A DNA stretch of 31,908 nucleotides, from positions 1 through 31,908 of IMG/VR virus record IMGVR_UViG_3300032073_000133, one strand, 5' to 3'. The stretch's first letter is position 1, and the number at the start of each line of letters is the position of its first letter. Made by a program: the position numbers and the translations under genes. The notes below the pieces were generated by a model that saw nothing but the letters and a program-made list of their open reading frames with translations, searched no databases and was not told where the DNA came from. This document shows, in pieces, positions 6,684 to 31,908 of this stretch. Origin of the DNA: a virus.

Positions 6684-6684
6684 A

Positions 6685-26491: not shown

Positions 26492-26665
26492 TTAAACCTC
26501 GTTTAGTTGTTCGATATTCTGCACTTGTTTTAAGTTTTTCAAACCCCGCTGGAGAGCTTGTTTATATACCTCACTGAGTCGCAGTCCCATATCGCGAGCC
26601 TTTTGTTTCGCTTGTTCGCGATCCTCAGTGTCCAGTTTTATTGTTATTGTGTGTTGTTGTGTCAT
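26492..26665 (-). CDS. Ribbon-helix-helix regulator (RHH1)
   Basis: This 57-aa ORF reads MTQQHTITIKLDTEDREQAK, then QKARDMGLRLSEVYKQALQR. The beta strand (TITIKLD) and the two helices that follow fit the Arc/MetJ/CopG fold, and the size is normal for the family. Two copies of GGTGGGGCATCAC lie 15-51 nt upstream of its ATG. Such proteins bind direct repeats as dimers, so autoregulation is likely. It lies between the nuclease gene and the terminator at 26726-26760, and is transcribed leftward toward the nucleases and polA. Confidence 0.65.
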   Translation of the reverse strand: MTQQHTITIKLDTEDREQAKQKARDMGLRLSEVYKQALQRGLKNLKQVQNIEQLNEV

Positions 26666-26680
26666 TTACATGAAATTCAA

Positions 26681-26716
26681 GGTGGGGCATCACCTCGTAG
26701 GAAGGTGGGGCATCAC
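26681..26716. repeat. Two copies of GGTGGGGCATCAC, candidate RHH operator
   Basis: GGTGGGGCATCAC occurs at 26681-26693 and 26704-26716, with 23 nt between starts, about two helical turns. Both lie immediately upstream of RHH1. A third identical copy at 27152-27164 lies upstream of the second RHH gene. Regular spacing and association with two RHH genes suggest an operator. On the minus strand an AT-rich region of the ACATAT type lies 4 nt upstream of the first copy, like a -10 box. Confidence 0.6.
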
Positions 26717-26725
26717 CCGATATGT

Positions 26726-26760
26726 AAAACACACCCATATCATTTCGATAATAGGTGTGT
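26726..26760 (-). terminator. Intrinsic terminator after RHH2/membrane gene
   Basis: On the minus strand, ACACACC (26754-26760) pairs with GGTGTGT (26729-26735) around an 18-nt loop, followed by a short U-run (26726-26729). The stop of the 71-aa gene (26740) lies inside the loop. It would separate the transcript of RHH2 and the membrane protein from the RHH1 promoter region. The U-run is short, so it may be leaky. Confidence 0.5.
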
Positions 26761-26955
26761 CTCAATTATTCGATCGTACTTTTCGGTAGCCTTAATTGCA
26801 AAACATAATGTTCCGAATAAAAAAATAGCACATACAAATAATAAAAATCTATTTTGTCTACTGCATTTAACCGCCATTGCGGCATTTCGGCATAGCTCAT
26901 ATTGAGCTTCCCCCCTTGCTTCTGCTAATGCAGTCAACGCTTCTTGGTCTTCCAT
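26740..26955 (-). CDS. Small single-pass membrane protein
   Basis: This 71-aa protein has an acidic and polar N-terminal half (MEDQEALTALAEARGEAQYE) and one membrane helix (RFLLFVCAIFLFGTLCFAIK) followed by a charged tail (TEKYDRIIETHLLSK). It overlaps the 3' end of RHH2 and is probably co-transcribed with it. Its role is unknown; small membrane proteins in the lysogeny region may take part in superinfection exclusion, but no sequence evidence decides. Confidence 0.55.
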   Translation of the reverse strand: MEDQEALTALAEARGEAQYELCRNAAMAVKCSRQNRFLLFVCAIFLFGTLCFAIKATEKYDRIIETHLLSK

Positions 26956-27131
26956 TTCTGATTCTTCAACCTATTCCGTTCGTTTTCTTCTTTCAGTGTT
27001 TCTGTCAATCTTAAGATTAATTCTGACACTGGAATACCTAATGATTCTGCCTTGCCGCGAATTAAGTCAATGTCATCAACGTGCATCCATGCCCGCAATT
27101 GTTTTTTGTTTGGGTCACGTTGGTTTGCCAT
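26934..27131 (-). CDS. Ribbon-helix-helix regulator (RHH2)
   Basis: This 65-aa protein, read from the ATG at 27131 (MANQRDPNKKQLRAWMHVDD), then IDLIRGKAESLGIPVSELIL and a charged C-terminus ending KNQKWKTKKR. The strand-helix-helix order (KQLRAWMHVDD, then two helices) fits the CopG/RHH fold. An upstream in-frame ATG at 27161 lies within the 13-bp repeat; the same distance (about 20 nt) between repeat and start as at RHH1 supports 27131. It lies downstream of the integrase and overlaps the next gene. It is probably a transcription regulator of lysogeny or early genes. Confidence 0.65.
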   Translation of the reverse strand: MANQRDPNKKQLRAWMHVDDIDLIRGKAESLGIPVSELILRLTETLKEENERNRLKNQKWKTKKR

Positions 27132-27151
27132 CAATTCGGCGTTTTCAAAAG

Positions 27152-27164
27152 GGTGGGGCATCAC
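27152..27164. promoter_or_regulatory. Third GGTGGGGCATCAC repeat, candidate operator of RHH2
   Basis: This is an exact copy of the 13-bp repeat before RHH1, 20 nt upstream of the RHH2 start at 27131. On the minus strand an AT-rich AAATATT precedes it by a few bases, like a -10 element, as at RHH1. It would allow either or both RHH proteins to control this promoter. Confidence 0.55.
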
Positions 27165-27202
27165 TAAATATTTTACAAGTTATTTTTGTGATTTTTTTCA
27201 AA

Positions 27203-28420
27203 TTAATTTAGAGCAAAATTTTCGGGCAGTCTTTTCTCTCCAGCGTAATGACGAATTGTAGTTTGAACGTGTTTGTGTCTAGCAACACGTCGAGCCACCT
27301 CTTCCCCATATTTTTCACGAACCGTATGCAAAGTATGAGCGCGAACTTCATGGAACGTGTGATCAGTACTGAGTCCTCTGGAGCGAAACCAAACATCTAA
27401 AGATTTTAAAGTTTTCCCACACCGATCTACGGGCCAGCCGTTTTCTGGTAAAATATACTCTTTATCTTCAGTAACACTCCACCACCATTGTAATTCTCTA
27501 TATATATCTGGATCAATGGGGATTGTTGTAGCCCGTTTTCCTTTTTGATCTGCGCTCATTTTAAACACAGGCGTTTTTCCTTGCTTAGATTTAATCCAGT
27601 CCCATTTAGCATTTGACATTTCTCCACGTCGCAATGTTGCTTTAGCTAAGAGATACGCAACCCAATGTGTCGGATTGTCATGTTTATTTTTCCGCAAAGC
27701 TTGGTCAATGTCAGCCATCAATTCGTCGTCTACCACTTCATGGTCTTGAGTTATTGGAGACTCCACCCGTTCTTTTAAAAATTCAGAAACGTCGCCAATA
27801 TAAATGCCCGCATCCTCGTACCGCACTTTGAACGAATCTTTAAATATAGCCCTTGCTTGCAATAGCGTAGATTTAATAGACCGCAATCGCCGTTGCCGTT
27901 CATCTTCCCCTTGGCCAATAACCATTTCAATTTCGTAATCAAAAAAATCTCTAATAGTTTTACCGTCTAGTTCACTAACCCTTGTACTAGCAAAGCTTTT
28001 GTTTGTTTTGCGTAACACTCGTTTTAAACACCCAATGTTTCCGTAAATTGTTTTTCGTTTTAACCCATGTTTATTTGCCAAAACGATATATGCTTTTTCC
28101 ACAGTGGCGAGAGTAGCGAACGATGGAGGTTGCAAAGATTCGGGTGCAACACCATATACAAAACCATCAATGAACTCCACGGCCAAACGTACAGCGTGAT
28201 ATGGATCAATAGTTTTAGTTGATACTTGTTTTCTAAACCCAGCACGTTGAACTTTTACACACCACGAACCGTTTAGCTTTCGTTGGAATAGTGTGTAGTG
28301 TTCTCCACGGTGGACAAATCGAATTTTGCCGTTCGCATCTTTAAAATAGTAAGGCGTGTCGTCCTCACGTTCACGAATCCAGTCGGCAGTGTCACGGAGA
28401 TGTTTTGGGGGTATTTGCAT
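27203..28420 (-). CDS. int: Tyrosine integrase
   Basis: This 405-aa protein (ATG at 28420, MQIPPKHLRDTADWI; the frame is open to a GTG at 28450) is a phage tyrosine recombinase. The N-terminal half contains an arm-type domain and a SAM-like core-binding domain (TVEKAYIVLANKHGLKRKTI). The catalytic domain has AKATLRRGEMSNAKWDW with the first Arg (about residue 264), a Lys on the beta hairpin (FKMSADQKGKR), HEVR (H357, R360), ARHKHVQTTIRHY with the second His, and the nucleophile Tyr at about 392. All catalytic residues are visible. The gene lies directly beside the att core, as usual. It would catalyse integration and excision at tRNA-Thr. Confidence 0.92.
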   Translation of the reverse strand: MQIPPKHLRDTADWIREREDDTPYYFKDANGKIRFVHRGEHYTLFQRKLNGSWCVKVQRAGFRKQVSTKTIDPYHAVRLAVEFIDGFVYGVAPESLQPPSFATLATVEKAYIVLANKHGLKRKTIYGNIGCLKRVLRKTNKSFASTRVSELDGKTIRDFFDYEIEMVIGQGEDERQRRLRSIKSTLLQARAIFKDSFKVRYEDAGIYIGDVSEFLKERVESPITQDHEVVDDELMADIDQALRKNKHDNPTHWVAYLLAKATLRRGEMSNAKWDWIKSKQGKTPVFKMSADQKGKRATTIPIDPDIYRELQWWWSVTEDKEYILPENGWPVDRCGKTLKSLDVWFRSRGLSTDHTFHEVRAHTLHTVREKYGEEVARRVARHKHVQTTIRHYAGEKRLPENFALN

Positions 28421-28521
28421 TTTGAGGCTACGAGTGTCTACATTTATCACTTTTAATAAGTGTCTACACGGCCCACAAAATCACAAAAGCTATCAACGTG
28501 TAAAGCGAAAAAAGAAAATTG

Positions 28522-28566
28522 TGGAGCCAGTGGTCGGGATTGAACCGACGACCTGCTGTTTACGAA
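28522..28566 (-). other. attP core: 3' half of a tRNA-Thr(CGU) gene
   Basis: Read on the minus strand from 28566, the sequence gives TTCGTAA (anticodon loop, CGU), ACAGC (3' half of anticodon stem), AGGTC (variable), the T-arm GTCGG-TTCAATC-CCGAC, the acceptor strand CACTGGC, U and CCA. The T-arm pairs perfectly. The 5' half (acceptor 5' strand, D-arm, 5' anticodon stem) is absent. Such a 45-nt tRNA fragment beside an integrase is the identity block that restores the target tRNA after integration. Tail-like phage genes continue beyond it, so this is attP, not a prophage end. The exact crossover position is not known. Confidence 0.75.
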
Positions 28567-28606
28567 ACACTGAAAGCACTAGGCTAAACTGCTAAAATTA
28601 AAAAAC

Positions 28607-29014
28607 TTAGCTGTCTGTTTTTGGAACGTGTCCTTCTTTCAAAATGTGCCACGCTGAAAAATATTTTTCATGTTTTGAATGACCACTACCATCTCCGGTA
28701 AATTTAACGCCTGTTCCGATTTTATGCATCGGCATGATGTAGAATGCAGGGTGGAGTAAACAAACAAATATGCAAAAATCGGCAGCACGACTAGTGAAAT
28801 TGGTAAACCTATATCCAGTCGGTCTGCCGTCAACCAATGCTGGAAGTTTGGAAGTTTTTATTTGAATACGATGATAGTAGTTGTGATCAACTCCAGCTAA
28901 CAAATCGCACCCATCGATATCAATACTTGGACGCGCTACTAAAAAACCTTGTTTTAATAATTCGGCCTCGACTAGTCGTTCCCCGACTGCGCCTATGATC
29001 ATTGAACGATCCAC
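28607..29014 (-). CDS. Small PD-(D/E)XK endonuclease-like protein
   Basis: This 135-aa protein has the pattern of the PDDEXK_5-type endonuclease family: GAVGERLVEAELLKQGFLVA, SIDIDGCDLLAGVDHNYYHR, IQIKTSKL. D37 and K53 of the D...QxK form (Q51 replaces the usual E) are the likely catalytic residues. The start is a GTG at 29014 overlapping the TAG of the large upstream gene (TAGTG), like the TerL start; an ATG at 29002 is possible. It sits between attP and a virion gene. It might have a role in phage competition, homing or defence evasion; nothing decides this. Confidence 0.65.
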   Translation of the reverse strand: MDRSMIIGAVGERLVEAELLKQGFLVARPSIDIDGCDLLAGVDHNYYHRIQIKTSKLPALVDGRPTGYRFTNFTSRAADFCIFVCLLHPAFYIMPMHKIGTGVKFTGDGSGHSKHEKYFSAWHILKEGHVPKTDS

Positions 29015-31908
29015 TATTCATTTTCAGAAAGCATCAAAAAACGTTTTCTAGTAAGCTTCATTAGTTTAATTTTGGCTTCTTTCAATGCTTCAAGTCGTAT
29101 TTCTTTTTCGTCTTCTGACAATTTAGAACTTGCCTCTATCACTTTCATTCTTTGAGTTAAGGTTTTAATTCGTTTATCAGTTTCTTTAATGCGCGGCAAA
29201 ATTCTACGAAGAGGCAATGCTTCTTTCACATAATTTTGTAATTTCTTAACTTCACCGTTAATCCGATATTGCTTTATCTGATCATCTGCTTGGTATGCTT
29301 CACCTCTCAATTTGTAATAGTTTTCTTGATCGTAATAAATAGTTTGTCCACCTACAAAACGATTTAATACCGGAATGCTTTTTGCCCCGTCTTGGGTGAA
29401 AGGTCGAAGCGCGTCTTTACCCATTGATCCAAACAAATGATTCATTACATAGTCAAAAGTTTCTGGACTAACGTCAACCAATCCAGCTTTAACTTCTGTA
29501 CCTCCGGTTAAAGAGTTTAAAGTTGAAGCAACTGTTTTTGATATCTCAGACACATTACCAAAATAGGATTGTGAATCTGGCTTTTTGTATCTGTCGTATG
29601 GGTTTTCATCTGGTCGAATAGGTGCGTCTTTCCAATCCTTATTAGTAACTACCGCAGTGAATGGGTCTAACACATCTGGAGTAGCGGCTCGCAGTATTCC
29701 CGGCCCCGAAAACAAATCGCTTGCACCCCCAATTGGATTGAACGCATTTAAAGTAGAACTTGTTGTGTGTGATAGCGTATCCCAACTAGATATTTCTCCT
29801 CGCAACATTCTTGATAGATTAGTCCCAGCGTAGTGAAAAACGTTAAACCCATACGGCATTGGAATTGTAAGATATTCTTCACCATCAAAAGGACTCATAA
29901 CGATCATGTTGCGTTCTCTAACGTGTTCTGGAATTTTTTTATAAAAAGATTCACCGTCTTCATCTTCGTCAGATATGATGTTGTTTACAAAATCTTGAGC
30001 CACAGCGAAAGCTGCAATTCCCGCTGTAGCTTTCCGTACTTTTTTATTTTCAAGAGCTTGAGCCATACGGTATGTGCCTTGCACCCCAGCGTTAAAAAAC
30101 AAAAACCAACTATTTAATGCACTAGACATTTCACCTTTTCTGGAAAAGTTTACAGTAATGTTTTTTGCTAAACTAGATGCTTGTAGCTTTGTCATGCCAG
30201 CTTTTCTAGCGTTAGCGTACACAGATAACCGCATAGTGTTTTCAACAGAAGCATTAATGTCTCCAGCCTTTTCTCTTAAAAATTTCAAAGCGTTAACTGT
30301 TTTGTTTTTAGATAGTGTAGAGTTAATTTTACCTTTTATTTTTTTAACTTCGTTAAGTCCAAAGAATTCAATTTTTCCACCTATTTCGGTAAACTCTTTG
30401 TAATATTCTCCGTACTCACCTTCGTATGCTTTTTTTCCTTTTGCCCCTACTTCAGCTTTCCACGCGGCTTTAAATGCTGGGCGAATCCCTTTCAACACAT
30501 TCTGTCTTAACCCTTCTGCGTCTGAAGCAGTGAGATTTATTTGCGCTGTTTGCAAATCTCGTAAAAAGTTTGGTATTACAAAACTTGGGGCAAGCTGAGT
30601 GTTGATTAAAGCAAGAAATCTATTTCCAGCCCCCATCCATTGGACTAGCTTGTTTAATGAACCAAAACCAACGTTGTTTAAATTTCTTGCAAGATGTGGA
30701 TTTGTTACACGAAGATATCGCTCTTGCCCAGCAATGAAATACGAAACTAACTCAGGGTCATCTTTCCAACGTGGGTCAACTTGGCTAACCACTTGTCCTT
30801 CGTTATTAAACTGCGGACGCATTTTTGGTTTAGCTGGAGCTACCACATTGTTTTTAAATTTTGTAACTAATTGTTCAAGCGAAGCCATAACGCGGTTACG
30901 TTCAACTTGTTCAATTGTGTTGTAGTGTTGATGGAAAATGTTTGAAAGAATGTCTACTACTTTCTTATCGCTTCCTTTTCGTTTACGATGTCCACGGAAA
31001 ACTCGATTACCACTTTCAAGATGATCAGACCGTGTGCCTTCCCGATTTAATGGAACATAGTTTTTATAAAAAGTAGACAATCTTTCGTGATTAGCTTTGT
31101 CAATTAACCCTCCTTCAAGTTCCATGTCTATTTGTGATTGGAGTAGTTTACGAATGCGAACTTCTAGTTGTTGAAGATTTTTTGTTTTTCCATCGGTTTC
31201 AAATTTCGCCAGAATTCTCCTTGCATTTTCGTTGGTCATACCACTCCCACCATCTGGCATAGCTTCGTTAATGTCAGCGTATCTTTTGTTTGCTTCTGGC
31301 GCATGACGAGCATGAAGATAATCGTGCAAATCTTCATTACTGATTCCAAGACGTTGCATTTCACTTAAAAACGGTTCAAGTTCAGTCTCGTCTAATTCTT
31401 TTTTCAAAAACCCTACACGATCTTGAAGATGTTCCATTCGCAGATACGCATTCATTGTGTCTGGGATCTTTTTTCCAGCCGCAATAGCATCTTGAAGCAT
31501 TTTTAAATCTACAAATCTATCTACTAATTTCCGAATAGCTTTATTTGCGTTTGAGTCTGGGTCTTGAAGGTTGAATTTTGCTCTTGCTGCAAATATTTTT
31601 TCATCAACCAATTGTCCAAATGTTTTTTTAGATTCTGTTTTTCTAGTCTTCTCACTTTCTTTAGCAACTGAATCAATTATGTCTTTAGAAAATTCTGAAG
31701 GAGTGCGAACTATTCCTTTAATAGTGTCATTCCAAATTTCACGAATGCCGTTAGTTAGTTTTACGCCTACTCTTTTTGCAAATTCAAATGCAGATTTAAC
31801 ATTTTGTTTACTCCAGTATGCTGCCATTTTATAAAGACTATAAACGGCTTTTCCAGCAGCGATTGGATCAACTCCAGAACCTACTCGACTACCTAGCTCG
31901 TTCATTAT
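29014..31908 (-). CDS. Large polyvalent virion protein with LPD38-like domain, 5' end outside window
   Basis: This frame has no stop up to the window edge, giving at least 964 codons, and its true start lies beyond. The protein is helical and charged. Segments such as SFVIPNFLRDLQTAQINLTA, SSALNSWFLFFNAGVQGTYR, NMIVMSPFDGEEYLTIPMPY and PYGFNVFHYAGT match the Large Polyvalent Protein-associated Domain 38 pattern found in the C-terminal part of very long podovirus proteins. A C-terminal coiled coil follows (SKLSEDEKEIRLEALKEAKI). Such proteins are packaged in the virion and injected with DNA. The missing part may carry enzymatic modules. It overlaps the next gene by one base. Confidence 0.7.
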   Translation of the reverse strand: MMNELGSRVGSGVDPIAAGKAVYSLYKMAAYWSKQNVKSAFEFAKRVGVKLTNGIREIWNDTIKGIVRTPSEFSKDIIDSVAKESEKTRKTESKKTFGQLVDEKIFAARAKFNLQDPDSNANKAIRKLVDRFVDLKMLQDAIAAGKKIPDTMNAYLRMEHLQDRVGFLKKELDETELEPFLSEMQRLGISNEDLHDYLHARHAPEANKRYADINEAMPDGGSGMTNENARRILAKFETDGKTKNLQQLEVRIRKLLQSQIDMELEGGLIDKANHERLSTFYKNYVPLNREGTRSDHLESGNRVFRGHRKRKGSDKKVVDILSNIFHQHYNTIEQVERNRVMASLEQLVTKFKNNVVAPAKPKMRPQFNNEGQVVSQVDPRWKDDPELVSYFIAGQERYLRVTNPHLARNLNNVGFGSLNKLVQWMGAGNRFLALINTQLAPSFVIPNFLRDLQTAQINLTASDAEGLRQNVLKGIRPAFKAAWKAEVGAKGKKAYEGEYGEYYKEFTEIGGKIEFFGLNEVKKIKGKINSTLSKNKTVNALKFLREKAGDINASVENTMRLSVYANARKAGMTKLQASSLAKNITVNFSRKGEMSSALNSWFLFFNAGVQGTYRMAQALENKKVRKATAGIAAFAVAQDFVNNIISDEDEDGESFYKKIPEHVRERNMIVMSPFDGEEYLTIPMPYGFNVFHYAGTNLSRMLRGEISSWDTLSHTTSSTLNAFNPIGGASDLFSGPGILRAATPDVLDPFTAVVTNKDWKDAPIRPDENPYDRYKKPDSQSYFGNVSEISKTVASTLNSLTGGTEVKAGLVDVSPETFDYVMNHLFGSMGKDALRPFTQDGAKSIPVLNRFVGGQTIYYDQENYYKLRGEAYQADDQIKQYRINGEVKKLQNYVKEALPLRRILPRIKETDKRIKTLTQRMKVIEASSKLSEDEKEIRLEALKEAKIKLMKLTRKRFLMLSENE

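Follow-up and report, generated by a model that had tools for sequence, protein, structure and literature searches.

Sites and genes of the region

The window analyzed here, 31,908 nucleotides of viral DNA from an IMG/VR virus record, contains three copies of a 13-bp word in front of two small genes, RHH1 and RHH2, which raises the question of what this element controls and which protein binds it. In the original prediction, it was taken for a direct repeat recognized by two ribbon-helix-helix (RHH) proteins forming a lysogeny switch without a CI-type repressor. A search of the whole record bore out the predicted three perfect copies of GGTGGGGCATCAC, all on the plus strand (26681-26693, 26704-26716 and 27152-27164), and disclosed no further copy, the next-best match having two mismatches. 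The base composition (G+C 0.416) predicts, by simple arithmetic, about 3e-4 exact copies for the window. One AT-rich 13-mer family of the window likewise occurs three times, and a 13-mer with at least three copies was present in 3 out of 30 shuffles. As AT-rich 13-mers can reach three copies too, the copy number of GGTGGGGCATCAC alone is only moderately unusual, and the case for this word rests on its position and conservation rather than on its number.

Read on the coding (minus) strand, the 13-mer is GTGATGCCCCACC. With one base added, copies 1 and 2 form the 14-bp inverted repeat GGTG-ATGCCC-CACC, while copy 3, located before RHH2, reads aGTG-ATGCCC-CACC with one end base changed. The sequence argues that the functional unit is a 14-bp inverted repeat (GGTG-N6-CACC) and not the direct repeat initially proposed. 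The predicted operators and the surrounding features, with all genes of the region running in the same direction, are:

26492-26665, minus strand: RHH1 (57 aa), the second RHH protein, first gene of the proposed regulated replication operon
26681-26694, minus strand: predicted operator O1 (GGTGATGCCCCACC), upstream of RHH1 and the replication operon, at 15 nt from the start codon (ATG) of RHH1
26704-26717, minus strand: predicted operator O2 (GGTGATGCCCCACC), before RHH1 and the replication operon, 23 bp from O1
26740-26955, minus strand: small membrane protein (71 aa), overlapping the end of RHH2, with one hydrophobic segment and an N-terminal motif
26934-27131, minus strand: RHH2 (65 aa), assigned by family alignment, AlphaFold2 helices, and Arc/CopG profile and fold matches
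27152-27165, minus strand: predicted operator O3 (AGTGATGCCCCACC), before RHH2, 20 nt from the RHH2 ATG
27165-27209, minus strand: segment of the RHH2 promoter region (45 bp), ending where O3 begins
27203-28450, minus strand: tyrosine integrase (PF00589, E 5e-8; phrog_1)
28522-28569, minus strand: attP core; its 48 bp match without a mismatch the 3′ portion of tRNA-Thr(CGT) in four Verrucomicrobiota MAGs
28607-29014, minus strand: nuclease (PDDEXK_5)

The distances to the start codons, which had been described as equal, differ between RHH1 (15 nt, ATG at 26665) and RHH2 (20 nt, ATG at 27131). AT-rich stretches resembling a -10 element (TTTTACATAT and TAAAATATTTA) do exist upstream of the sites, as suggested, but a consensus scan revealed no sigma-70-type site at either of them. 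Downstream of RHH1 there are genes for a nuclease, a DUF2800 exonuclease, a DNA polymerase A and a helicase-like protein. No CI-type or other HTH repressor was found among the scanned proteins of the window; the window, which may be incomplete, and its relatives are metagenomic fragments, and a CI-type gene could lie elsewhere.

The membrane protein did not match any Pfam or PHROGs family, hence no known toxin family adjoins RHH2. Its gene follows RHH2 in most of the phage relatives whose sequence covers that side, and the protein could be an exclusion or signalling partner of RHH2. The motif LAExxGEAxYxLCxNAA at its N-terminus is common to the window and the relative G001. Near the end of the window (29014-31905), a 963-aa piece of a very large protein with matches to PHROG 14770 and DarB-like proteins is encoded, whose open frame runs on to 1419 aa in the relative G002.

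The RHH2 protein

Both neighbors of the sites look like RHH proteins, as had been claimed, RHH1 by sub-threshold matches only (DUF6290 and CcdA). The AlphaFold2 model of RHH2 exhibits two helices (residues 18-31 and 35-64) after an N-terminal stretch, which is unformed in the monomer and would become a beta-strand once the protein is dimeric. RHH2 conforms to the architecture of the ribbon-helix-helix (MetJ/Arc/CopG) proteins, an N-terminal strand followed by two helices. The profile of the RHH2 family matches Arc and CopG chains (pArc 3e-5, CopG 6e-4). The top fold matches were Arc, MazE, CopG and ParG, none of them below E 0.001, weak values as expected for a monomer of 65 residues. RHH2 of the window is below the cut-off in Pfam and NCBIfam; some of its relatives gave weak matches to RHH_1 and RHH_5.

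Predicted operators in related phages

Phage relatives were found by protein search with RHH2 alone. Seven of the first nine RHH2-bearing phage records contain an exact GGTG-N6-CACC 43-64 bp before RHH2, at a shuffle expectation of 0.017 for such a site within 150 bp before the gene; because most of these records are related, they amount to fewer than nine independent cases. In L017, RHH2 is preceded by GGTGGTGTTCCACC and the RHH1 homologue by two sites in tandem, GGTGATGCCACACC and GGTGATGCCCCACC, spaced 24 bp apart. A second branch (L018-L021, L024) harbors GGTGGATAAACACC, GGTGGACAGCCACC, GGTGTATAAGCACC and GGTGGACGGCCACC before RHH2. In front of the RHH1-like gene, the exact site GGTGTACGAACACC followed by GGTGTACATACACt is present in L019, and only GGTGTACATACACa-type sites in L020 and L021. 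L088, identified later and by protein search only, carries the exact site GGTGGTAACCCACC before RHH2 and again before its RHH1-like gene.

Among 17 relatives checked, most have a palindrome that begins 0-3 bp after TTGAC(A/G/T) and lies inside the 17-bp spacer, often accompanied by a TAT-like -10 sequence; in the second branch and in L088 it is situated within the 17-bp spacer of a TTGAC promoter. The spacer between the -35 and -10 regions is a classic position for a repressor. The inner six bases of the element vary freely among the relatives, and the outer inverted repeat stays. Further GGTG-N6-CACC sites, some of them in tandem, were noticed upstream of the integrase gene in the second branch and in L093, suggesting that the integrase promoter may be under the same repressor.

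Some homologues deviate from this picture. G001, whose RHH2 is 66% identical, contains no site before RHH2 and one exact site within the 5′ part of the coding sequence of the following RHH gene. An exact GGTGATGCCCCACC is also present on its reverse strand at 6684 (G001, L011/L012), within a long unrelated coding gene far from RHH2. Altered sites before RHH2 were found in L085 (7-bp centre), L086/87 (GGTGGGAGTAC repeat) and L093 (imperfect site). No recognizable operator was detected at the distant homologues L022, L029, L076 and L077, nor upstream of the clade-B homologue L075, where the gene context differs and the locus borders the end of a contig. Where GGTG-N6-CACC occurs within coding genes of GC-rich loci (e.g., L020 at 4423), it is probably background. 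Searches of the viral contigs with the double-site DNA pattern, of the viral contigs and the phage collection with the integrase protein, and of the phage and plasmid collections with RHH2 gave no match.

A sister phage without the sites, and the attachment site

G002 (locus L006) is 95-99% identical to the window over most of its length. It lacks the segments corresponding to 26666-27164 and 27210-28633, which comprise the three sites, RHH2, the membrane gene, the integrase gene and attP. The only remnant of the deleted region is the 45-bp segment 27165-27209, which now precedes RHH1 and does not contain an operator. RHH1 itself is 98% identical in the two phages, and neither an RHH2-family protein nor a PF00589 integrase was found in the 39 kb of G002. 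Since G002 has kept RHH1 and lost the rest, the sites travel with RHH2 and the integrase and not with RHH1. Thus, the supposed co-conservation of the repeat with both regulators applies to RHH2, whose homologues are accompanied by sites, and fails for RHH1.

An exact match to the 46-bp attP pattern was found in each of four Verrucomicrobiota MAGs, at a tRNA-Thr(cgt) called by ARAGORN. The identity of the attP core with the 3′ part of this tRNA gene indicates that the phage is temperate, and its host is very probably a marine Verrucomicrobiota bacterium. The same four MAGs did not contain an RHH2 match. A stem around 26725-26756, regarded for a time as attP core, was dropped once the tRNA-Thr segment had been found at 28522.

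Homologues in Verrucomicrobiota genomes and in an Akkermansia phage

With the RHH2 profile, matches were obtained in 12 of 384 genomes of the class and 6 of 293 genomes of one order, and with a widened profile (A6) in 23 of 260 genomes of one family. Several weaker matches in Verrucomicrobiota genomes were unconvincing, and those in GC-rich genomes (L030-L032, L038, L039) resemble reading frames arisen by chance. The prophage loci L036, L037 and L040 harbor GGTGGTTAACCACC before RHH2, again within the spacer of the promoter, followed about 300-360 bp downstream by one or two palindromes of similar sequence (GGTGGTGAACCACC or GGTGGTTCACCACC); L033 and L035 have the same layout with GGTTATAGTAACC. 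Operators of further loci are GGTTTRACAAACC (L052-L054), GGTGTACTACACC (L050) and GGTCTAAGACACC (L051). These prophages also carry other HTH-like genes. A strict test for one palindrome upstream and two copies downstream was passed by 6 of 26 loci and in none of 20 shuffles per locus. The window fails this test, as copy 3 is off by one base and the downstream sites tolerate no symmetric centre; its 1+2 layout was recognized by inspection.

A homologue 91.5% identical to the L036 protein is encoded by the Akkermansia phage DTMo-2021a (CP084202.1; listed host, A. muciniphila NBRC 114322), in which an integrase-like gene lies upstream of the RHH2 homologue. The phage possesses the 1+2 set with TTGACT-GGTGGTTAACCACC before the homologue and GGTGGTGAACCACC at +304 and +361. 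In these prophage and Akkermansia-phage forms, a second RHH gene replaces the membrane gene and the 1+2 sites are the same. RHH2 overlaps this second RHH gene in L041, L042 and L102, and both downstream operators are positioned within its 3′ coding part. In L036 and L102, the downstream operators encode GGEPP twice.

Predicted operator sequences and the RHH2 beta-strand

RHH2 proteins with the strands KKQL(R/T)xW and KKQISVW are paired with GGTG..CACC operators, the strand KRSLAVY with GGTTATAGTAACC and KKFVSIL with GGTTTGACAAACC. Operator and strand residues change together, as would be expected if RHH2 is the binding protein. In L082, the integrase and the flanking genes are homologous, but the RHH2-type gene is inverted and divergent (strand KRVYNYW) and GGTA..TACC repeats replace GGTG..CACC, which looks like an immunity swap. 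In this locus (L082:6780-7860), GGTACATACATACC flanks the RHH1 homologue on both sides and GGTGTATACCACC precedes the RHH2-type gene.

A proposed lysogeny switch and its alternatives

Read from the DNA, the palindromic sites and their link with RHH2 and the integrase, together with the 1+2 layout, the promoter overlap in relatives and the att site, suggest that RHH2 is probably the lysogeny repressor of a temperate phage of marine Verrucomicrobiota, acting via O1-O3. As expected for such a repressor, sites exist at its own and at an early promoter, and the gene is linked to the integrase and lost in the integrase-less relative. Binding, repression and the direction of the switch we infer as follows. 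An RHH2 dimer would read the inverted repeat GGTG-N6-CACC with its paired beta-strands. Bound to O3 at its own promoter, it would autoregulate and limit its synthesis; on O1 and O2 it would silence RHH1 and the replication genes (nuclease, DUF2800 exonuclease, DNA polymerase A), most likely by promoter occlusion. Lytic development would be off in this way while the phage is integrated at tRNA-Thr, and loss or displacement of RHH2 would lead to expression of RHH1 and the replication operon. Of the switch originally envisaged, the RHH operators and the tie to lysogeny are supported, and no CI-type gene was found in the window; an equal role of RHH1 is not supported.

With such an equal role, the repeat would be bound by both proteins, and RHH1 and RHH2 would counteract one another in the manner of CI and Cro. 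Both proteins look like RHH proteins, RHH1 adjoins two of the sites, most relatives have a second RHH gene after the sites, and the two-sided GGTACATACATACC at the RHH1 homologue of L082 would also be in line with it. We nevertheless consider it unlikely, as RHH1 is almost unchanged in the siteless G002, and the proteins at the RHH1 position, only 12-33% identical to RHH1, diverge in the strand region with GGTG..CACC unchanged; changes of the operator track the strand of RHH2. RHH2 might alternatively be the antitoxin for the membrane protein in a toxin-antitoxin-like module, the sites autoregulating the pair and RHH1 being a bystander. RHH antitoxins autoregulate via palindromes, and RHH2 and the membrane gene overlap and stay paired in phage relatives. 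Such a module is quite improbable, though, given that two of the three sites lie in front of RHH1 and the replication operon, that the prophage and Akkermansia-phage forms have the same 1+2 sites without the membrane gene, and that RHH2 and the sites were lost together with the integrase and attP in G002.

The proximity of the repeats to the integrase gene, with which they vanish in G002, would also suit arm-type sites for the integrase or an excisionase. As attP (28522-28569) is approximately 1.4-1.9 kb away beyond the integrase gene, so that the repeats do not closely flank it, and as their promoter position is kept in relatives with much diverged integrases (22-24% identity), we give this explanation very little credence. 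Finally, GTGATG CCC CAC is contained in every copy and might serve as the start of a short peptide; the copies are also close to start codons, copy 3 even being in frame with RHH2. An mRNA leader or start-codon element is, however, extremely doubtful in view of the location in the -35/-10 spacer in relatives and of the free inner six bases within a fixed outer inverted repeat.

We see about an even chance that a CI-free switch with an RHH master repressor is widespread in Verrucomicrobiota phages, in which strand and GGT...ACC operators would change together within a fixed 1+2 layout and thereby create immunity groups.

Comparison with known repressors

In phage P22, the CI-like repressor C2 is accompanied by Arc and Mnt, repressors that function in a secondary immunity region. 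Arc and Mnt are RHH proteins of a temperate bacteriophage as well, and Arc chains are among the profile and top fold matches of RHH2; the window differs from P22 in that no HTH repressor was found in it and in that its RHH gene adjoins the integrase gene. CopG of plasmid pMV158, matched by the RHH2 profile (E 6e-4), is a short RHH protein that autoregulates via a pseudosymmetric operator at its own promoter, but it serves plasmid copy-number control and is connected neither with an integrase nor with a lytic operon. The RHH repressor Reg of p576 (pLS20-family clade II plasmids) has operators beside several promoters of the mobile element (PMC8708921); unlike the system proposed here, it controls conjugative establishment genes of Bacillus plasmids.

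In the open-access literature searched, chiefly titles and abstracts, neither a description of this RHH system nor a study of lysogeny control in Verrucomicrobiota phages was found. The system offers a concrete predicted repressor, operator and target promoter together with a natural deletion in a sister phage, and its many co-drifting repressor/operator sets are ready data on how RHH beta-strands choose DNA. Owing to the homologue in the named Akkermansia phage DTMo-2021a, it is testable in culture.

The switch would be a bacterial counterpart of that of the archaeal virus SSV1, whose repressor F55 has a single site at its own promoter and a pair at every early promoter (PMC5569661). An F55-type 1+2 layout is present in the window and in the six other loci that passed the strict test. 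F55, likened to RHH2 in layout and mode of control, is likewise a small RHH lysogeny repressor with sites overlapping promoter elements (PMC5569661). It belongs to an archaeal virus with archaeal promoters, and its sites contain tandem repeats (ATAGATAG), whereas those described here are single GGTG-N6-CACC inverted repeats.
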